Made by a program: the position numbers and the translations under genes
Part shown: positions 23,047-33,252 of the stretch, piece after piece
Numbering within the stretch: position 1 is the stretch's first letter
Layout of the letters: every line of letters begins with the position of its first letter
Source of the DNA: Abyssibacter sp.
Lineage (GTDB): Bacteria > Pseudomonadota > Gammaproteobacteria > Nevskiales > OUC007
NCBI GenBank assembly: GCA_023146115.1
Contig: JAGLCS010000128.1
Coordinates: 1 to 39,211, forward strand
Length of the DNA: 39,211 bases
Direction: 5' to 3'
The notes under the pieces: generated by a model
What the model was told of the DNA's origin: nothing
The model's input: only the letters and a program-made list of their open reading frames with translations
The model's database searches: none

Positions 23047-23179
23047 GGCATGCGGCTGATTGCGTCAGGCCGGTCTTGGGCGGTCAATGCCGACCCATCG
23101 CTGCCTGGCCGCCTTGCCATCGCTGAACCTCTGCCGTCACGACGAGATTCTGGGAACAACTGACTGTGGGAGTGTCCGA

Positions 23180-24490
23180 ATGATCAATGCTTTACCCCAT
23201 CGCACGGGTGGCAAGATTCCTGCGCGGTTGTCGCGGCGGGATTTTCTACGCCACAGCCTGGCCACGTCCGGTCTTGCCGTCACCGGCCCGCTGCTGTGGA
23301 GTTGCAGCGGCGGCGGTGGTTCCGGCCCCGGAGGCACCGTGCTGGCGCCGTCGCTGACCAAGCTTGGCGTGTTGGGAGAGCCGGATGCCCTTGGCCTGCG
23401 GCTGCCGGAGGGATTCTCCGCACGCATCCTCGCCGAGTCCGGCATTCCTGTTGTCGGTGATCTGCTGGATCCGATTCTCGGTCCGGTGCTCGGTTACGAC
23501 TGGCACACGTTTCCCGACGGCGGTGCGACCTTCCCGGCAGAAGACGGTGGCTGGGTCTACGTGTCGAATTCCGAATCGGTGCCCGGCGGTGTAGGTGCGC
23601 TGCGATTTGATGCGGCTGGTCAGGTGATCGACGCGTACCAGATTCTCGCCGGCACTATCATCAACTGCGCGGGTGGGCCGACGCCGTGGGGCACCTGGCT
23701 GTCCTGCGAGGAGATTCCCACGGGGCGTGTTCACGAGTGCAATCCGTTCGGGGGCATTCTCGATGCCCGTGCCAGACCCGCACTGGGGATTTTCGATCAT
23801 GAGGCGGTAGCGGTGGACCCGGTGCGTCGGCAGCTCTTTCTGACCGAGGATGCCGGCGACGCGACGTTCTACCGCTTCGTGCCCAGCGCCATCGACTGGC
23901 CGGCCGGTGCCGAGCGCCCGGCGCTGGAGGACGGCGCGTTGCAGGTCATGGTGGTGCCGGGTGTTGCCGACTCGCGCGACATCCCGTTCGAATCCGATCC
24001 CGTACCGGTGCAGTGGATCGATGCCCAGGCGCCGGATCGACCACAAGCATCGAACCGGCTTGCCGAGGCGACCGTGTTCGCGGGCTCCGAGGGCATCTGG
24101 TACATCGACGACATCGTCTATTTCACCTGCAAGTCCGGCAACCGGGTCTGGGCATATCACTGTGTCGATCAGACGGTGCAACCGATTTACGACGACGATG
24201 CCTACGGCGGCGGCGAGGCGCCGCTGCGCGGCGTCGACAACTGCGTGGTGTTCGGGCCCTCGCGCGATCTCATCGTCGCCGAGGATGGCGGTGACATGCG
24301 GATTAGCGCCATTGGGCTGGACGGTGCCGTGGTTCCGATCATGCAGCTCGTCGGCCAGGATGATTCCGAAATCACCGGGCCGGCCTTCAGCCCTGACGGC
24401 AGTCGCCTGTACTTCAGCTCACAGCGCGGCGGCCGCCTGGGCAGCGGTATCACCTACGAGATGACCGGCCCATTCGGCGAGCCGCGCTGA
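23180..24490 (+). CDS. PhoX-like (DUF839) Tat-exported lipoprotein, putative phosphatase
   Basis: This 436-residue protein begins with a Tat signal (RLSRRDFLRHSLATSGLAVTGP) that ends in a lipobox-like LLWSC, so it should be exported folded and perhaps lipid-anchored. The mature part shows PhoX family blocks: SNSESVPGGVGALRFD, INCAGGPTPWGTWLSCEE (in PhoX this Cys is an iron ligand), HEAVAVDPVRRQLFLTEDAG and PAFSPDGSRLYFSSQRG. PhoX enzymes are Ca/Fe-dependent alkaline phosphatases. This protein is shorter than classic PhoX and may act on another phosphoester. GGGAG stands 7 bp before the ATG at 23180. The Pho box upstream supports a phosphate-starvation role. The convergent TonB receptor is 22 bp downstream. 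Confidence 0.82.
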   Translation: MINALPHRTGGKIPARLSRRDFLRHSLATSGLAVTGPLLWSCSGGGGSGPGGTVLAPSLTKLGVLGEPDALGLRLPEGFSARILAESGIPVVGDLLDPILGPVLGYDWHTFPDGGATFPAEDGGWVYVSNSESVPGGVGALRFDAAGQVIDAYQILAGTIINCAGGPTPWGTWLSCEEIPTGRVHECNPFGGILDARARPALGIFDHEAVAVDPVRRQLFLTEDAGDATFYRFVPSAIDWPAGAERPALEDGALQVMVVPGVADSRDIPFESDPVPVQWIDAQAPDRPQASNRLAEATVFAGSEGIWYIDDIVYFTCKSGNRVWAYHCVDQTVQPIYDDDAYGGGEAPLRGVDNCVVFGPSRDLIVAEDGGDMRISAIGLDGAVVPIMQLVGQDDSEITGPAFSPDGSRLYFSSQRGGRLGSGITYEMTGPFGEPR

Positions 24491-24512: not shown

Positions 24513-26960
24513 TCAGAAGCGAAGGTTCAACGCCGCGAAATACTGCCGGCCACTGGCCAGTTGCGCCTGGTAAGTGCCGGGAAAGAACGGCGTATCGGTG
24601 ACCTGGTTGAGCACGCGCTCGTCGGTGAGGTTGGTGCCGCCGACGGTGATCGACCAGGACTCGCTCTGCGACCCCAGCGTGATGCGCGCAGCGTACTTGG
24701 TGTAGGCGGGCACATAGGTGTTCGGGTCCAGGTCCGAGTCCACGAACTGATCACCCTGGTACAGCACATCGACGGCGGTGATCAGCGCCATCGACCCGAT
24801 CGGAACGCTTAGCGTCGGCGTCAGCGTCGCGGTGGCGCGCGGGGCGAAGGCGATGCGCTGATCGCTGAGATCCTGCTCCGCGTCGATGCCCTGCTGAATC
24901 GGAGCAGGGGCGTCGGTGTATTCGTCGTAGCGGGCATCCAGCCAGCCGAAGGAGCCGGCCAATTCCAGCGGCGTCCAGGGCGTCAGCCACAGGAAGTCAG
25001 CTTCGAGGCCGCGTGAGTACGCTGTGGCAGCGTTGCTGACATCGAAAAAGGTGCCGTTGAAGGCCAGAACCTGCAGGTTGTCGAACTCCGTTTGATAAAC
25101 CGTCAGATTGACCGACAGGGTGCGGTCGAAAAAGCGACCCTTGACGCCGGCTTCCACCGTCTGCGTTTCCTCGGCCTCGTACTCCAGGTCGTCGCCGGTG
25201 TAGGACAGCGAATTGAAGCCGCCACTCTTGAAGCCTTTTGCCCAGGACGCGTAGTAGTTGACGTCGTAGTCGCTGAAGTACTGCAGGACGAACTTGGGCG
25301 AGAGGTCGGATTCTTCGCGGCGAAGATTGTTGCGGTCGTAATCGTTTGCGCCCAGCAACAAGCCCATCACGCAGGGGATCACGCTGGCTGGGGTGCGCTC
25401 GCAGAACGCCGTGCCGGCCGTGTCGACACGCTTTTCCTCGCGGTTGTAGCGGATGCCGGGCGTGATCGCCCAGCGGTCCGTCAGGTACCAGGTCATCTGC
25501 CCGAACAGCGCCGCCGAACTGATGTCCTGCGTGTAGTCGAACTGGTAGAAATCGTTTTGCAGCAATGGCACAAGCAGCGGTCCAAGGCCTTGCAGCAGCG
25601 TCAGCGGGCTGCTGATATCGCCGCTGCCCGTGATCAGCTGCAGCGCGTCGTCGGTGAACACGTAGCTGCTCAGATCCTCGCCGGCGACGATGCGCGCCAG
25701 CAACTCGTAGCTCGAATCGAACCAGAACGCCCCGGCGACGAACTCCACGCCTGTTCCCCAGCCAAACGGCGCCGGGCCGGCACCGCTGAAGCGCAGCTCG
25801 GCCGATAGCTGATCGTGGTCTTCGTGGTTATCGAGGCGGCTGATGTTGGCCGGCGAAATGTCCAGCTCGTTGAGCTGGTCGATGTAAAACCGCGACCCGC
25901 CGAGCACCAGCACCGTGCTCAGGTCATCCAGCACGCCAACCGGCCCGTGGGCCCACTCGGTCTTCCAGCCTATGGTGCGTGAACCCTTCTCGATCCAGCC
26001 CGGTGTTTCCGCGGAGTTGATGAAGTTTTTCGGATCGTCCTCGATGTCCGGGTCGAAATCCTCCAGGTAGTTGCGGGTGTCGGCATCCAGATTGAATAGC
26101 TGAAACGGCCAGAAGGCCGCTTCCGTGTCGGAGATCACCGCGGTGATTTCGCTGTCGATGTCGTAGCTGGGCAGTACTCGGAACTTCAACCGCGCCGCCT
26201 GTTGTTCCAGGCGCTCCTCATGGCGATCGAGAAACTGGTTGTACAGCTCGCCGTCCTGCGCCCGGTCGAGCACCGCCAGGCGGGCGCCTACCCATTCGTT
26301 GAGCATGCCTCCAGCACCGGCCTCAACGCGGTGTTCGCCATGCTCGCCGTAGAACACGCGGCCATCGACGCCGGCGCCAGACACCGGCCCCTTGCTGATC
26401 ACGTTGAATACGCCGGCCACCGTGTTCTTGCCGAACAATGTGCCTTGCGGCCCGCGCAGGACCTCGACGCTATCGACATCGAACATCGCCTCGGTGAAGT
26501 AGCCGGGGCGACCGAAGTAGATTTCGTCCTGAACAAAACCGACAGAACTTTCGAAGCTGGGATTGAAGGCGTTGGTGCCGAATCCGCGGATGAAGACCTG
26601 CGGAGAACCCAGATCGTCGGCATCGACGCGCACATTCGGTACGTAGAGCGACACATCTGCCAGATCCGCCGCGCCGCTGGCCTGGATGAAGCCGCCGTCG
26701 ATGGCCGTGACCGATACCGGGACCTCTTGCAGCGTCTGCTCGGTCTTTTGCGCCGTGACCACCATTTCCTCGAGCTGACGAGGCGGATCATCGGCGCGGG
26801 TTCTGGCGGGCTTGTCCACCGGCCGCACCGGAATCAATTCCAGCTCGGCCTCGACGGGCTCGGGTCCGCCGGGGCGCTCCTGCTCGGGTGATTGCGCACC
26901 GACACTGAAACTCACGATCATGGCGAGTGTCGCCATTCCCTGCGGCGAAAAGTGCTTCAT
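24513..26960 (-). CDS. TonB-dependent outer membrane receptor
   Basis: This 815-residue protein has a Sec signal peptide (MKHFSPQGMATLAMIVSFSVGAQS), a proline/acidic linker with a TonB-box-like EEMVVTAQK, the plug domain (about 85-200: VPVSVTAIDGGFIQASGAADLADVSLYVPNV, VEVLRGPQGTLFGKNTVAGVFNVISK) and a ~600-residue beta-barrel ending in the terminal strand QYFAALNLRF. It resembles the large environmental group of receptors for complex organic ligands rather than a defined siderophore receptor; the ligand cannot be told. The start at 26960 has AGGGAG upstream; the ORF track start at 27269 is inside the divergent cytochrome gene. The promoter lies in the 220 bp shared with that gene. Confidence 0.93.
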   Translation of the reverse strand: MKHFSPQGMATLAMIVSFSVGAQSPEQERPGGPEPVEAELELIPVRPVDKPARTRADDPPRQLEEMVVTAQKTEQTLQEVPVSVTAIDGGFIQASGAADLADVSLYVPNVRVDADDLGSPQVFIRGFGTNAFNPSFESSVGFVQDEIYFGRPGYFTEAMFDVDSVEVLRGPQGTLFGKNTVAGVFNVISKGPVSGAGVDGRVFYGEHGEHRVEAGAGGMLNEWVGARLAVLDRAQDGELYNQFLDRHEERLEQQAARLKFRVLPSYDIDSEITAVISDTEAAFWPFQLFNLDADTRNYLEDFDPDIEDDPKNFINSAETPGWIEKGSRTIGWKTEWAHGPVGVLDDLSTVLVLGGSRFYIDQLNELDISPANISRLDNHEDHDQLSAELRFSGAGPAPFGWGTGVEFVAGAFWFDSSYELLARIVAGEDLSSYVFTDDALQLITGSGDISSPLTLLQGLGPLLVPLLQNDFYQFDYTQDISSAALFGQMTWYLTDRWAITPGIRYNREEKRVDTAGTAFCERTPASVIPCVMGLLLGANDYDRNNLRREESDLSPKFVLQYFSDYDVNYYASWAKGFKSGGFNSLSYTGDDLEYEAEETQTVEAGVKGRFFDRTLSVNLTVYQTEFDNLQVLAFNGTFFDVSNAATAYSRGLEADFLWLTPWTPLELAGSFGWLDARYDEYTDAPAPIQQGIDAEQDLSDQRIAFAPRATATLTPTLSVPIGSMALITAVDVLYQGDQFVDSDLDPNTYVPAYTKYAARITLGSQSESWSITVGGTNLTDERVLNQVTDTPFFPGTYQAQLASGRQYFAALNLRF

Positions 26961-27180
26961 GCACGCTCCCTGTGCTGTCTGGATCCGACCGCCCCGGTGG
27001 TTATCAGCCCCGTATTGCGATCCCTGCTGCCTTTCCTCCGCAACATCGAAGATAGAGCACCGTCCGGCGCTGGGTAGTCGTAAATTGATCCTAATCCGTC
27101 GCGAACGCCCGCCCTGGCGGATGCGGCTGGCATGATTACGGCATCCACACCGCCATAGAACGCGCAAGGGAATGCAAATC

Positions 27181-27546
27181 GTGAACCGATTGTTTCTGTG
27201 TATGGGATTGGCCTTGCTGGTCGCGGCCTGCGGGCCCAGCGATTCGTCAGGAGGCATCTCACCAGCCAAGGCCTTGTCGATGGCGCCGGCTGATCCCGAT
27301 CTGGCCGAGCTGTATCAATCGAGCTGCCGCGCCTGCCACGCCACGGCCGCCGGCGGTGCGCCACGTACCGGCAGCGCCATGGCCTGGCGGTCCCGTCTCG
27401 CCAAGGGCATGAGCACGCTGGTGGATCACACCATCACCGGTTTCCAGGGCATGCCGCCTATGGGCCTGTGCTCCGATTGTTCCGAGGCCGAGCTGCGCGC
27501 CCTGATCGAGTTCATGGCCACGCCGCCGGTCGAGGACGACGCGTGA
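27181..27546 (+). CDS. Cytochrome c5-like c-type cytochrome (lipoprotein)
   Basis: This ~121-residue protein has a lipoprotein signal (RLFLCMGLALLVAACGPS, lipobox VAAC) and one class I haem c domain: haem motif CRACH, axial Met in GFQGMPPMG, and the extra cysteine pair in GLCSDCSEAELRALIEFM that marks cytochrome c5. It should be a periplasmic, membrane-anchored one-electron carrier. AAGGGA lies 9 bp before the GTG at 27181, which is preferred; an in-frame ATG at 27172 is too close to that site. The stop overlaps the start of the flavoprotein gene (GTGA), so the cytochrome is its likely electron acceptor. Confidence 0.88.
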   Translation: MNRLFLCMGLALLVAACGPSDSSGGISPAKALSMAPADPDLAELYQSSCRACHATAAGGAPRTGSAMAWRSRLAKGMSTLVDHTITGFQGMPPMGLCSDCSEAELRALIEFMATPPVEDDA

Positions 27547-28949
27547 GGCGGCGGGACTTTCTCGCCGGCAGCGCGGCGGTTGCCACCCTGCCGCTGGCAG
27601 GTTGCGACGACTACGGTGCGGCCAACATGCCCCGACCACCGGAGCCGAAAGCAGGCCCTGATGGCCAGCGCCTGCTGCCATGGCAGAACTGGTCGGGCTA
27701 CCAGTCCAGCCTGCCAAGCCAGCGAATCGCGCCCGAGACGGAAACCGCCTTGGCGGAGTTGCTGACCTCCACTGCTGGCACGGTGCGGCCGGTCGGCTCC
27801 GGCCATTCGTTCACACCGCTGGTCCCCACGGACGACACCATTGTCTCGCTGCGGCATTTCAGCGGCCTGCTGGAGCACGACACCGCGGCGATGACGGCCG
27901 TGGTTGGCGCCGGCACCAAACTGGGCAGCCTAGGAGCGCCGTTGCATGACGCCGGGCAGGCGCTGATCAACATGCCCGATGTCGACGCTCAGACCCTGGC
28001 CGGCTCGATGGCCACAGCGACCCACGGCACCGGAGCCGGCCTGGGTGCATTGCACACGGCGGCCACGGGGTTTCGACTGGTGACCCCGACCGGAGAGATC
28101 ATCGATTGCTCGGCCGGCGAGAACCCGGACGTCTTCCAGGCCGCGCAGGTCTCGCTCGGCGCCTTGGGTGTGATCACCCGAGTCACGCTGCAAAACGTGC
28201 CGACCGTGCGCATGAAGCGCCGGGTCTGGGTGGAGGATTTCGCGGCGCTGGTGGAACGGTTCGACACGCTGGCCGCCGAACATCACAGCTTCGAGATGTA
28301 CTGCGTGCCGCATTGCGACTACGGCATCGGCATCACCATCGACCCGACCGATGATGCCATCCAGCCCCGCGGCCCGGAGCAGGACAACGATGCGGTCATG
28401 GACCTCAAGAAGCTGAGGGATTTGCTGTCCTGGTTCCCCGCCGCTCGCCGCTGGCTGCTCAATATGGCGATGCAGGACTACGAGCCGGAGGAGGCCGTGG
28501 ATGTCTGGTACCGCATCTTCCCGTCCAGCCGCGCCGTCCGGTTCAACGAGATGGAATACCACCTGCCGCGTGAGGCCTTGTTGCCGACCTTGCTGGAAGT
28601 GCGCAAGACGCTGGAGCAAAAGCATCCCGGCGTGTTCTTTCCGATGGAGATCCGCCTGGTGAAGGGTGACGACGCCTGGCTGAGCCCGTTTCAGGGCCAC
28701 GCGACCTCCGGCTCGATTGCCGTGCACCGCTACTTCGAGGAGGACCCGCTGCCGCTGTTCCGGGACGTGGAGCCGCTGTACCAGCCGCTGGGCGGGCGCC
28801 CGCACTGGGGCAAGATGCACACGCTGGGCCCGGCGACCCTGGCCGAACGCTATCCGCGTTTCGGTGATTTCGTCGCCCTGCAGGCGAGGCTGGACCCGGA
28901 CGGCCGCATGCTCAACGACTACCTGAAAGGATTGCTTGACCATGCCTGA
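27543..28949 (+). CDS. Tat-exported FAD-linked aldonolactone oxidase/dehydrogenase family protein
   Basis: This 468-residue protein starts MRRRDFLAGSAAVATLPLAGC, a twin-arginine signal with lipobox LAGC. It has an FAD-binding PCMH domain (about 45-220: VRPVGSGHSFTPL, where the His is the usual covalent flavin site in this family; AGSMATATHGTGAGLGALHTAATGF) and the C-terminal ALO domain (about 230-465) with PMEIRLVKGDDAWLSP and GGRPHWGKMHTL, the hallmark of L-gulono/D-arabinono-1,4-lactone oxidases. It probably oxidises a sugar lactone or polyol in the periplasm and passes electrons to the neighbouring cytochrome. The GTG start overlaps the cytochrome stop by 4 bp. The exact substrate is not known. 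Confidence 0.88.
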   Translation: MRRRDFLAGSAAVATLPLAGCDDYGAANMPRPPEPKAGPDGQRLLPWQNWSGYQSSLPSQRIAPETETALAELLTSTAGTVRPVGSGHSFTPLVPTDDTIVSLRHFSGLLEHDTAAMTAVVGAGTKLGSLGAPLHDAGQALINMPDVDAQTLAGSMATATHGTGAGLGALHTAATGFRLVTPTGEIIDCSAGENPDVFQAAQVSLGALGVITRVTLQNVPTVRMKRRVWVEDFAALVERFDTLAAEHHSFEMYCVPHCDYGIGITIDPTDDAIQPRGPEQDNDAVMDLKKLRDLLSWFPAARRWLLNMAMQDYEPEEAVDVWYRIFPSSRAVRFNEMEYHLPREALLPTLLEVRKTLEQKHPGVFFPMEIRLVKGDDAWLSPFQGHATSGSIAVHRYFEEDPLPLFRDVEPLYQPLGGRPHWGKMHTLGPATLAERYPRFGDFVALQARLDPDGRMLNDYLKGLLDHA

Positions 28950-30273
28950 GCTGGATATCCACTGGAAGCGCCGCACGTTCCTGGCGGCCTGCGTCGCCGC
29001 GCCGATCGGCCTGCTTGCGGCCAAGAAGCCGCGGGACCAAGGTCAGGGCGGTCACGATGACTACTTCGCGGGCCTGCAGCAGGCCCTGCGCGATGCGGAC
29101 CTGATGCGACCGACGCTGGTGATCGATCGTGCGCGGCTGGACGCCAATATCGCCCTGCTCAAGCAGCATCTGCCATCGGACATGGCCTACCGCATCGTGG
29201 CCAAGTCGTTACCCAGCGTGGAGCTGATCCGGCGCGTGCGCGCTGCGACCGGCACGAATCGGCTGATGGTCTTCCACCAGCCGCACCTCAATGTGCTGTC
29301 CCAGGCCATGCCGGACGCCCATCTGCTGCTGGGCAAGCCGATGCCGGTGGGCGCGGTCGACAGCTTCTTCGCCCAGTACCAACCCGGAGCATTCGATACG
29401 GCTACGCAAATCGAGTGGTTGGTCGATACGCCGCAGCGCATTGCCGACTATCGCGAGCTCGCTGCGGCGCGGGTGCGCGATGGCGCCGGGCCGATGGCGC
29501 TGAACCTGGAGCTGGATGTCGGTCTGCACCGCGGCGGATTCCGCAACACCCGCGATGTGGCCGAGGCGATTCGGTCGTTGCAGGCCGACCCGAACGTGCG
29601 ATTCGCCGGCTTCATGGGCTACGAGGCGCATGCTTCGAAGATTCCGGATGCCCTGGGCGGCCCGGCCGGTGCGCTGGCTGACGCCATGGCCTACTACGCC
29701 GATTGTGTTGAAGTCGCCAAGGCCGTGCTCGGCGACGCCTATCGGCCCGCCGAGCTAACCCTGAACGCGGGTGGAAGCAGCACCTACCAGCTTTACGACA
29801 ACGCGGCGCCCTGCAACGAACTGGCCATGGGCTCGGGGCTGGTCAAGCCATCGGATTTCGACACCGCCACGTTGTCCGACCATCAAGCGGCCGCCTACAT
29901 CGCGACACCGATCCTCAAGCAGCTCGACGGCACCCGGCTGCCCAGTCTGGAGCGTTTGTCGGGCCTGTTTCAGGCCTGGGATCCGAACACCGCCCAGACC
30001 TTTTTCCTCTACGGTGGCTACTGGCTTGCCGACACCGTGTCGCCGCCCGGCTTGCAGCGCAATGCCATCTGGGGGCATTCCACGAATCAGGACATGCTCA
30101 ACGGCTCAGCCCAAGTCGAACTCGCCGTGGGCGACCACGTGTTCCTGCGGCCGCAGCAAAGCGAGTTCGTGTTTCTGCAGTTCGGCGACATCGCGGTGTA
30201 TGAGCAGGGCCGAATTGTCGATACCTGGCCGGTGTTTCCGCAGGCGCCCATGGCGCAGCCCGCTCAGGCCTGA
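28942..30273 (+). CDS. Exported PLP-dependent alanine racemase-fold enzyme (D-threonine aldolase/DSD1-like)
   Basis: This 443-residue protein begins MPELDIHWKRRTFLAACVAAPIGLLA, a Tat-like signal (KRRTFLAA). The mature part has the alanine-racemase N-terminal TIM barrel (RPTLVIDRARLDANIALLKQHL; the PLP lysine in YRIVAKSLPSVEL; LNLELDVGLHRGGF; GGSSTYQLY phosphate-binding loop) and a C-terminal beta-domain as in D-threonine aldolase and D-serine dehydratase. The usual PxHxC metal-ligand motif near the C-terminus reads PQQSE here, so the metal site of those enzymes seems absent. AAAGGA precedes the ATG; the gene overlaps the flavoprotein gene by 8 bp. Its substrate is probably a D-hydroxy amino acid or an amine linked to the flavoprotein pathway; this is inference. 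Confidence 0.82.
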   Translation: MPELDIHWKRRTFLAACVAAPIGLLAAKKPRDQGQGGHDDYFAGLQQALRDADLMRPTLVIDRARLDANIALLKQHLPSDMAYRIVAKSLPSVELIRRVRAATGTNRLMVFHQPHLNVLSQAMPDAHLLLGKPMPVGAVDSFFAQYQPGAFDTATQIEWLVDTPQRIADYRELAAARVRDGAGPMALNLELDVGLHRGGFRNTRDVAEAIRSLQADPNVRFAGFMGYEAHASKIPDALGGPAGALADAMAYYADCVEVAKAVLGDAYRPAELTLNAGGSSTYQLYDNAAPCNELAMGSGLVKPSDFDTATLSDHQAAAYIATPILKQLDGTRLPSLERLSGLFQAWDPNTAQTFFLYGGYWLADTVSPPGLQRNAIWGHSTNQDMLNGSAQVELAVGDHVFLRPQQSEFVFLQFGDIAVYEQGRIVDTWPVFPQAPMAQPAQA

Positions 30274-30488
30274 ACGGTTTCCGGCGCCACCGTCTCGGTG
30301 CTAAAGCCCGTGACATGCACGCCCCCGAACTGCCGCAGAAACGCATCGACGATTAGGCGCGGCACCGGCTGGCCATCGAACATCGGCGTCAGCTTTCGGG
30401 CCTGATCCACGCGCTCGAAGGCCTGCGGCGTGCGTTCCACGACAATCACTCGATTGTCACCATCCCTGTACATGTAGGCGTGTTGCAT
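30264..30488 (-). CDS. Small protein of unknown function
   Basis: This 74-residue protein (MQHAYMYRDGDNRVIVVERTPQAFERVDQARKLTPMFDG...) was not recognised. It has no signal peptide or membrane segment and no cysteine. The ATG at 30488 is chosen because AGGAG stands 8 bp before it; the ATG at 30494 would be only 2 bp from that site, and the ORF start at 30605 lacks support. Its 3' end overlaps the end of the PLP-enzyme gene by 10 bp, convergently. It is divergent from the next small gene across 184 bp containing two CCGGACATCC direct repeats (30540 and 30577). Confidence 0.6.
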   Translation of the reverse strand: MQHAYMYRDGDNRVIVVERTPQAFERVDQARKLTPMFDGQPVPRLIVDAFLRQFGGVHVTGFSTETVAPETVQA

Positions 30489-30672
30489 ATCCATTGCTCC
30501 TGCGTCTGGTGTCCTACAGAACGGCATTCGGAACCGGATCCGGACATCCGAAACCATTATTTCGTCGGAGTCCGCGCCGGACATCCCCCTGAACAGGGCG
30601 TACACGGTTGGGCACGCGGTTTCACGCGCTTTATCTTGGTGGGTGGGGAAACTGGTGAGGTCGCAAGGGGCA

Positions 30673-30914: not shown

Positions 30915-30969
30915 GTCCCGGCGAGCCGGGGTGCGGGGGGATAGCCCGCCGGGACAATCAGGCGGGCTA
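30915..30969 (-). other. Two mutually exclusive hairpins at the ahpF stop codon
   Basis: GTCCCGGCG (30915-30923) pairs perfectly with CGCCGGGAC (30947-30955); TAGCCCGCC (30942-30950) pairs perfectly with GGCGGGCTA (30961-30969), which contains the ahpF stop. The two stems share bases 30947-30950, so only one can form at a time. They stand between the gene and its terminator. Function, such as mRNA 3'-end protection, is inference. Confidence 0.45.
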
Positions 30970-32547
30970 GGCCGCCTGCTGTTGCGCGTCGTCAGGGGCC
31001 GAACTACGCATCAGGTGGTCAAACGCGCTGAGCGCGGCGGTGGAGCCGCCACCCATGGCGATGATGATCTGCTTGTACGGCGTGGTGGTGACATCACCCG
31101 CGGCGAATACGCCCCGCATGGAGGTCTGCGCCCGGTCGTTGACGATGACCTCGCCGCGCTCGCTGAGCTCCAGCGTGCCCTTGAGCCATTCGCTGTTGGG
31201 CAACAGGCCGATCTGAACGAACACGCCTTCGAGTGCCACGTCGTGAATCTCGCCGCTGTTGCGATCCTTGTACTTCAGGGCCTGCACCTTCTGCCCGTCG
31301 CCGATGACTTCGGTGGTCTGCGCGGAGGTCAGCACCTTCACGTTCGGCAGGCTGAGCAGCTTGCGCTGGAGGACAGCATCCGCCCGCATCGTGCTGTCGA
31401 ACTCCAGCAAGGTGACGTGCTTGACGATGCCGGCCAGATCGATCGCGGCCTCGACGCCGGAATTGCCGCCCCCGATGACCGCGACGCGCTTGCCCTTGAA
31501 CAGCGGACCGTCGCAGTGCGGGCAGTAAGCCACGCCCTTGTTGCGGTACTCCTCTTCGCCAGGCACGCCCATCTGCCGCCAGCGGGCACCGGTGGCGATG
31601 ACCAGGCTCTTGGCCTTGAGAGCGGCACCGCTGTCGAGGTGGACTTCCAGAAACTCATCGCCTTCGACCAGCTTGCTGGCCTTTTGCAGCTTCATCACGT
31701 CGACGTCGTAGTCCATGACGTGCTGTTCCAGGGCCGCGCCCATCTTCGGGCCTTCGGTCTTGGACACCGAGACAAAGTTCTCGATGTCCATTGTGTCCAT
31801 GACCTGGCCGCCAAAGCGTTCGGCAACCACACCGGTTCGAATTCCCTTGCGCGCGGAGTAGATGGCCGCGGCGGCGCCAGCCGGGCCGCCACCGACGATC
31901 AGCATGTCGAAAGGGTCCTTCTGCTTGATCTTCTCGGCTTCGCGCTCGACCGCGCCGGTGTCCATCTTCGCCAAGATCTCATCGACCGTCATACGCCCTG
32001 AGGCGAAGTGCTCGCCGTTCAGGAATACGGCCGGCACGGACATAATCTGGCGTTGCTCGACCTCGTCCTGGTTGAACGCGCCGTCGATGGCCACGTGTTC
32101 GATGTTCGGGTTTAGCACCGCCATGGCGTTGAGCGCCTGGACCACATCCGGGCAGTTCTGGCAGGACAGCGAGAAGAAGGTTTCGAACTTGTGGGTGCCA
32201 TCAATGGCCTGGATCTGCTCGATGGCGTCTTCACCCAGCTTGGGCGTGTTGCCGCCGACCTGCAGCAGCGCCAGCACCAACGAGGCGAACTCGTGGCCGA
32301 GCGGAATGCCGGCGAACTCCAGATGGATGTCCGCATCCGGCGTGCCGATCGCGAAGCTGGGAATCCGCTTGCCGCTGTCGGTGCCGCTGTTCACGCTGAT
32401 CTTGTCGGAGGCGCTCTTCAATTCGCCGAGGAAACTGAGCATTTCCTTGGAGTGGTCGCCATCGTCGGTGTAAGCGGTGATTTCGACCGACCGGGACAGT
32501 CGTTCGAGATACTGCTTGAGTTGTGCTCTCAGGTTGTCATCCAACAT
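30967..32547 (-). CDS. ahpF: Alkyl hydroperoxide reductase subunit F
   Basis: AhpF is the NADH- and FAD-dependent disulfide reductase that recycles AhpC. The 526-residue protein (E. coli 521) has a tandem thioredoxin-fold N-terminal domain with the redox pair CQNC (about residues 129-132), an FAD domain ([21 protein letters not shown]), the second redox pair in [14 protein letters not shown] (about 347-350), an NAD domain ([19 protein letters not shown]) and the FAD-closing [15 protein letters not shown]. All four redox cysteines are present, so the enzyme should be active. The ATG has AGAGGAA upstream. It lies 141 bp after ahpC, with a hairpin between, and is followed by an intrinsic terminator. 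Confidence 0.97.
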
Positions 32548-32688: not shown

Positions 32689-33252
32689 TTAGATCTTGCC
32701 GACCAGGTCCAGGGACGGGGTCAGCGTCTTTTCGCCTTCTTTCCACTTGGCCGGGCAGACTTCGCCAGGATGGGCGGCCACGTACTGGGCAGCCTTGACC
32801 TTGCGCAGCAGCTCTTCGGCGTTGCGGCCGATGCCGTTGTCGTGGATTTCACAGAGCTTGATCTCGCCGTCCGGGTTGACCAGGAAGGTGCCGCGCAGGG
32901 CGATGCCTTCTTCTTCGATCATGACCTGGAAGGCGCGAGCCAACTGGCCCGTCGGATCGCCGATCAGCGGGTACTTGACCTTGCCGATGGCTTCGGAGGT
33001 GTCGTGCCATGCCTTGTGCGCGAAATGGGTGTCACAGGACACGCCGTAGATCTCGACGCCAATGGCCTTGAACTGGTCGTAAAGGTCAGCGAGGTCTTCC
33101 AGCTCCGTCGGGCAGACGAAGGTGAAGTCGGCCGGGTAGAACACGATCGCCGACCACTGGCCCTTGAACGTGTCTTCACTGACATCAATGAACTCGCCTG
33201 CCTGGAATGCGGTGGCCTTGAACGGCTGCACCGAAGTATTGATCAGGGACAT
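32689..33252 (-). CDS. ahpC: Alkyl hydroperoxide reductase subunit C (2-Cys peroxiredoxin)
   Basis: AhpC reduces H2O2, organic peroxides and peroxynitrite in the cytoplasm and is recycled by AhpF. The 187-residue protein is the standard AhpC length and has the peroxidatic Cys in FYPADFTFVCPTE (about residue 47), the resolving Cys in HPGEVCPAKW (about 166), the MSLINTSVQPFKATAF start and the DNGIGRN segment typical of bacterial AhpC. AAGGAG precedes the ATG at good spacing. It is the first gene of ahpC-ahpF and is read from a promoter region with an OxyR-like site. Confidence 0.98.
   Translation of the reverse strand: MSLINTSVQPFKATAFQAGEFIDVSEDTFKGQWSAIVFYPADFTFVCPTELEDLADLYDQFKAIGVEIYGVSCDTHFAHKAWHDTSEAIGKVKYPLIGDPTGQLARAFQVMIEEEGIALRGTFLVNPDGEIKLCEIHDNGIGRNAEELLRKVKAAQYVAAHPGEVCPAKWKEGEKTLTPSLDLVGKI

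Follow-up and report, generated by a model that had tools for sequence, protein, structure and literature searches.

The window, that is, the whole 39,211-nucleotide stretch of Abyssibacter sp. DNA that was analyzed, carried three consecutive genes on the plus strand and a TonB-dependent receptor gene diverging from them (Table 1). The ORF coordinates confirmed the three-gene operon proposed in the earlier note, with overlaps of 4 bp (27543-27546) between the sphB-like and sphC-like genes and 8 bp (28942-28949) between the sphC-like and sphD-like genes. The sphB-like ORF started with a GTG that was preceded by AAGGGA about 9 nt upstream, and an alternative in-frame ATG start occurred at 27172; the sphC-like and sphD-like ORFs started with GTG and ATG, respectively. 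In the stretch between the receptor gene and the operon, no sigma-70-type match was found, and promoter and terminator scans gave nothing above chance. As for the surrounding genes, a PhoX-like protein gene (23060-24490) adjoined the receptor gene and was convergent with it, and a small minus-strand ORF (30264-30605) without a Pfam match overlapped the end of the sphD-like gene. Genes for an AhpF-like reductase (30967-32547) and an AhpC-like peroxiredoxin (32689-33252) lay on the minus strand just past the trio.

Table 1. Features of the trio and its divergent receptor gene in the window
Feature	Position	Strand	Basis
TonB-dependent receptor gene, divergent from the trio	24513..26960	-	Plug and TonB_dep_Rec domains
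Receptor/operon intergenic stretch, divergent promoter region	26961..27180		
sphB-like gene, cytochrome c5-type monohaem lipoprotein	27181..27546	+	PF13442, CRACH haem motif, homology to P. aeruginosa SphB
sphC-like gene, FAD oxidoreductase of the aldonolactone/alditol oxidase family, Tat lipoprotein	27543..28949	+	TIGR01679, conserved residues
sphD-like gene, fold-type III PLP enzyme, Tat signal, probable membrane anchor	28942..30273	+	Ala_racemase_N, model

The trio is a marine-type relative of the Pseudomonas sphBCD operon. It had in common with P. aeruginosa sphBCD (PA5328-PA5326) the gene order of cytochrome c, flavoprotein, and PLP enzyme on one strand, the protein families, a Sec lipoprotein cytochrome and a Tat flavoprotein, and a link to neutral ceramidase. 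Over the aligned parts, identity to the P. aeruginosa proteins (locus L077) was 60% for SphB, 45% for SphC, and 45% for SphD. The two operons differed, however, in that the window SphC and SphD fell into a separate clade, a divergent TonB receptor gene lay beside the window trio, and the window SphC is a lipoprotein whereas P. aeruginosa SphC is of the signal-peptidase-I type. Moreover, the trio in the P. aeruginosa record adjoins an outer-membrane channel gene (the sphA position) and sphR, whereas neither sphA nor sphR was adjacent to the window trio; these neighbors are not known to be needed in an operon of this kind. No SphR or SphA matches were found beside the trio in the window-clade loci L043-L049, and SphA was not found in the window's own genome, which leaves SphA unsupported as the outer-membrane channel for this trio.

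The sphBCD type was reported in 2014 (LaBauve and Wargo 2014; followed by work in 2016 and by DiGianivittorio et al. 2025), and in P. aeruginosa it is induced by sphingosine. SphB and SphC are required there for growth with sphingosine and for sphingosine loss, sphD is dispensable for growth with sphingosine, and SphBC may or may not attack sphingosine directly (PMC11893366). The P. aeruginosa trio and the ceramidase gene cerN also rise together with sphingomyelin (PMC5150637). Therefore, what the earlier note took for an undescribed periplasmic pathway had already been described in outline by this published work, as a pathway acting in sphingosine metabolism.

Export motifs were seen on all three proteins, in agreement with the earlier note: a Sec lipoprotein signal on the SphB-like protein (VNRLFLCMGLALLVAAC), a Tat signal with a lipobox on the SphC-like protein (MRRRDFLAGSAAVATLPLAGC), and a Tat signal on the SphD-like protein (KRRTFLAACVAAPIGLLAA). 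Tat calls were made here by a crude test for a twin arginine plus a hydrophobic run, together with conservation. On these motifs the PLP protein appears to be exported, and not cytoplasmic, the case that had been named as refuting. An exported PLP enzyme, which the earlier note found unexpected, has a precedent in PvdN, a protein of aminotransferase type that leaves the cytoplasm by Tat (PMC6085387). When twin-Arg signals were scored automatically at 106 loci with both genes readable, they occurred on both SphC and SphD at 83 loci, on neither at 8, on SphD only at 12, and on SphC only at 3. At no fewer than 9 of the 12 SphD-only loci, inspection by eye or of a longer translation revealed a twin-Arg motif in SphC, and the others were incomplete. 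These counts suggest that the two proteins have export signals in common at nearly all loci and that SphD is almost always Tat-exported, probably acting in the same compartment as SphC. Tat export of P. aeruginosa SphC has been proven and its start codon found to be misassigned; the main text of that paper (PMC6085387) makes no mention of PA5326. For P. aeruginosa SphD (L077:7929-9206), a GTG preceded by AAAGGAG, a good ribosome-binding site, lay 23 codons before the annotated start and opened the frame VNRRKFMFAGLGAGALLAGAAAW, which adds a twin-Arg signal. Apparently, the P. aeruginosa SphD start has been annotated too late, so hiding a Tat signal, and this protein would be Tat-exported too.

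Strong SphD was found in 26 of 61 genomes (own plus relatives), and in the regions around these 26 genes the flavoprotein gene adjoined in most and the cytochrome gene preceded in many. The own genome held one SphD and one TIGR01679 flavoprotein above the cut-off. A set of 72 named genomic loci whose upstream DNA spanned 3.3 kb or more was picked as best SphD matches and is no census; here the flavoprotein gene lay immediately upstream of the SphD gene in 65, a cytochrome gene was present upstream in 45, and both were in 44. This gene order is far beyond chance, and the trio withstood the test of conservation in other genomes that had been set beforehand. In both the SphC tree and the SphD tree, the same 13-row window clade was recovered with strong support, and P. 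aeruginosa SphC and SphD stood on a separate, supported branch; therefore, the substrate of the window clade could differ. Within one genus (g10), genomes had either window-type or P. aeruginosa-type SphD and none in this sample had both, a mutual replacement that suggests equivalence of the two types. Two contigs labelled Acidobacteria (L159 and L139) encoded trio proteins nearly identical to those of a Hyphomonas MAG (L134); this near-identity probably reflects a binning error or recent transfer.

One strong neutral ceramidase (PF04734, 411.7 bits) was encoded in the own genome, and this family was absent from all 14 control genomes. In a class sample of 274 genomes, a ceramidase above 100 bits was present in 7 of 8 strong-SphD genomes versus 0 of 266 others, with 4 weak matches among the latter. 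For the 61 own and related genomes, the corresponding numbers were 20 of 26 versus 8 of 35, and at the phylum level they were 3 of 23 versus 2 of 376; significance was assessed by Fisher tests, which ignore shared ancestry. Thus, ceramidase tracked SphD strongly within the order and class and weakly in the phylum. Because of this weaker phylum-level link, ceramidase is not an obligate partner. Support separate from the co-occurrence counts came from physical linkage, as the ceramidase gene adjoined the trio in three genomes (G018, G052, and G005) and lay between the flavoprotein and SphD genes in another (G097).

The TonB receptor gene was divergent upstream of the trio in 11 of the 13 window-clade members. 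Among solved structures, its nearest relatives were receptors for siderophores and pesticin, with the match falling mostly on the plug. Other relatives also had orthologues of the receptor, with 54-63% identity, that did not lie near the trio, so that a receptor dedicated to the trio is only partly supported. All 20 genomes of the sample with a receptor orthologue, the own genome included, carried SphD or a distant PLP homologue. As an uptake partner in the window clade the receptor is a plausible candidate.

The SphB-like protein matched cytochrome c (PF13442, 1.7e-14), aligned with cytochrome c5/ScyA relatives in the PDB, and had both the CxxCH haem site (CRACH) and the second CxxC pair (CSDC) of cytochrome c5. 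The SphC-like protein scored 498.1 bits against TIGR01679, for which the curated cut-off is 292.25, and also matched ALO (PF04030). The partnership of flavoprotein and cytochrome envisaged in the earlier note has genetic support in P. aeruginosa (PMC11893366). Its premise that plant and yeast relatives reduce cytochrome c held for plant-type GalDH but not for fungal ALO, which reduces O2 (PMC11099136). The closest structures to the SphC model (pLDDT 88) were galactonolactone dehydrogenases and alditol oxidases. The FAD- and substrate-binding residues of alditol oxidase 8ot8, His45, His118, Glu327, Arg329, His350, and Lys382 (PMC10771423), corresponded to SphC H88, H161, E369, R371, H395, and K424, which were invariant in 25 of 25 proteins. 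SphC has in common with alditol oxidase (AldO; PDB 2vfr, 8ot8) the fold, the covalent-FAD His, the Glu-x-Arg, and the catalytic-site His and Lys, whereas it differs in being exported and paired with a cytochrome and in three positions. The AldO Ser103, which contacts flavin N5 (8ot8, PMC10771423), was replaced by Asp (D146) in all 25 SphC proteins; Gln295 corresponded by extrapolation of the alignment to an equally invariant Glu (E336, 25 of 25). We infer that D146 and E336 are new acids near the SphC site, which would fit a cationic amine substrate. The third is the oxygen gatekeeper position as defined in GalDH (PMC11099136), SphC position 145, which was Pro in the window protein and P/G/A/S across the family, so SphC may have oxygen reactivity.

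The SphD-like protein matched Ala_racemase_N (PF01168, 1.7e-16), and the Pfam search reported no Ala_racemase_C domain. Its model (pLDDT 91) was best matched by D-hydroxyaspartate aldolase, D-threonine aldolase, and hydroxyaspartate dehydratase, at 15-19% identity. In sequence and fold matches, the D-hydroxyaspartate and D-threonine aldolases ranked ahead of alanine racemases, and together with the unreported C-terminal domain this does not favor an alanine racemase. BsrV, a periplasmic racemase and a second precedent for an exported PLP enzyme, was among the Foldseek matches. SphD has in common with D-threonine aldolase and D-3-hydroxyaspartate aldolase (4v15, 6qkb) the alanine-racemase-like PLP fold and the PLP lysine (K88, invariant in SphD), but it is exported and its active site departs from theirs. 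The metal ligands of D-threonine aldolase, His347 and Asp349 (PMC4401734), fell in a profile alignment with aldolase-like proteins on Q406 (38 of 42; V in 4 of 42) and E408 (42 of 42). The Glu-His of the EHG motif aligned with N382-Q383, and the catalytic base His193 with K233, a variable position. Given that the metal ligands and the catalytic base are missing, SphD as a strict D-threonine aldolase is ruled out, and so retro-aldol cleavage is not assured. To judge from these residues, SphD should not be classed with the D-threonine aldolases, although it may work like one of them.

Homology, gene order, the ceramidase link, and the residues all support a model in which the products of the sphBCD-type operon clear the periplasm of sphingoid bases, namely sphingosine and its analogues, and as a whole we consider this model probable. 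A sphingoid base is the likely substrate of the window trio. In a first step, a neutral ceramidase whose gene lies elsewhere in the genome would split ceramide, and the free sphingoid base would cross the outer membrane, here probably via the divergent TonB receptor. In a second step SphC, an FAD protein that Tat exports in folded form and that has a lipid anchor, would oxidize the C1 hydroxyl to an aldehyde and perhaps continue to the acid, in the way that alditol oxidase oxidizes glycerol onward to acid (PMC11009771). In a third, SphB, the lipoprotein cytochrome, would take up the electrons from SphC and pass them to the respiratory chain. In a fourth step, SphD, which would leave the cytoplasm together with its cofactor and is probably tethered to the membrane, would cleave the C2-C3 bond of the 2-amino-3-hydroxy product, releasing a long-chain aldehyde along with glycine (or aminoacetaldehyde). 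When C1 of a natural sphingoid base is oxidized to a carboxyl, C2 becomes D-configured, and compounds of this class are handled by the SphD-type fold, so the product would suit the SphD enzyme. The substrate in this organism, the C1 regiochemistry, the SphD reaction, and the receptor role are the parts of the scheme that we infer. An aldol cleavage linked to an oxidation, one of the options in the earlier note, gained support, and the idea had already been proposed (PMC3900636).

Alternatively, the same operon type could act with the same chemistry on the amino-diol or polyol head group of a different lipid from outside the cell, such as bacterial or algal sphingoid-like bases. The separate clade with its own TonB receptor would fit this, as would the clade member G024, in which no ceramidase match was found. 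Of the 9 related genomes with the window type, however, 8 had a strong ceramidase, and in one genus each SphD type can take the place of the other, which makes a different head group rather unlikely. Still less probable, to the point of being hard to sustain, is an operon for sugar-lactone or polyol oxidation with an unrelated PLP enzyme. Although the family name of SphC (D-arabinono-1,4-lactone oxidase), its TIGR01679/ALO membership, and the likeness of its model to galactonolactone dehydrogenase and alditol oxidase would agree with such an operon, the conserved linkage to the PLP enzyme and to ceramidase and the sphingosine-induced relatives speak against it. A sugar-lactone pathway was rejected, as no sugar-catabolic gene was recognized among the recurrent neighbors, and as substrates we consider lactones and polyols less likely.

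A further alternative touches only the fourth step and leaves the other parts of the sphingoid-base model intact. Here SphD would be not an aldolase but a racemase/epimerase, a dehydratase, or a scavenger of the toxic amino aldehyde made by SphC. The replacement of the metal ligands by Gln406 and Glu408, of the EHG Glu-His by Asn-Gln, and of His193 by a variable Lys agrees with this reading, as does the dispensability of sphD for growth with sphingosine (PMC11893366). Set against it are the ranking of the two aldolases ahead of alanine racemases and the unreported Ala_racemase_C domain, and we regard a non-aldolase SphD as possible but doubtful.

Within the model of periplasmic sphingoid-base removal, we tentatively suggest, as a possibility open to considerable doubt, a TonB-receptor-fed sphBCD variant, widespread in Proteobacteria, in which exported SphD would act as a fold-type III PLP lyase that needs no metal and would finish the breakdown, leaving a fatty aldehyde and a C2 unit. 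If true, such a route would parallel that of sphingosine-1-phosphate lyase but involve no phosphorylation. The lipid that sphBCD detoxifies is an antimicrobial one of the sphingosine type, found in hosts and plants, and the ceramidase linkage extends this likely function beyond Pseudomonas to Nevskiales/Salinisphaerales-type bacteria with an added TonB receptor. The operon type itself was already known; new here are the clade-specific TonB receptor, the predicted Tat export of SphD, its missing metal ligands, and the alditol-oxidase residues and putative acids of SphC, and the comparison adds testable mechanistic constraints.

Distant pairs of a flavoprotein and a PLP homologue were found at L187 (G020), L188 (G042), L076 (G047), L075 (G012), and L030 (G046). 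In G020, G042, and G047, this second pair adjoined ceramidase, and in G042 a gene for an SphR-like AraC regulator lay near the pair and the ceramidase gene. No signal peptides were visible on the pairs where these were checked (L074-L076), and the distant pairs could possibly be a cytosolic version of the pathway.
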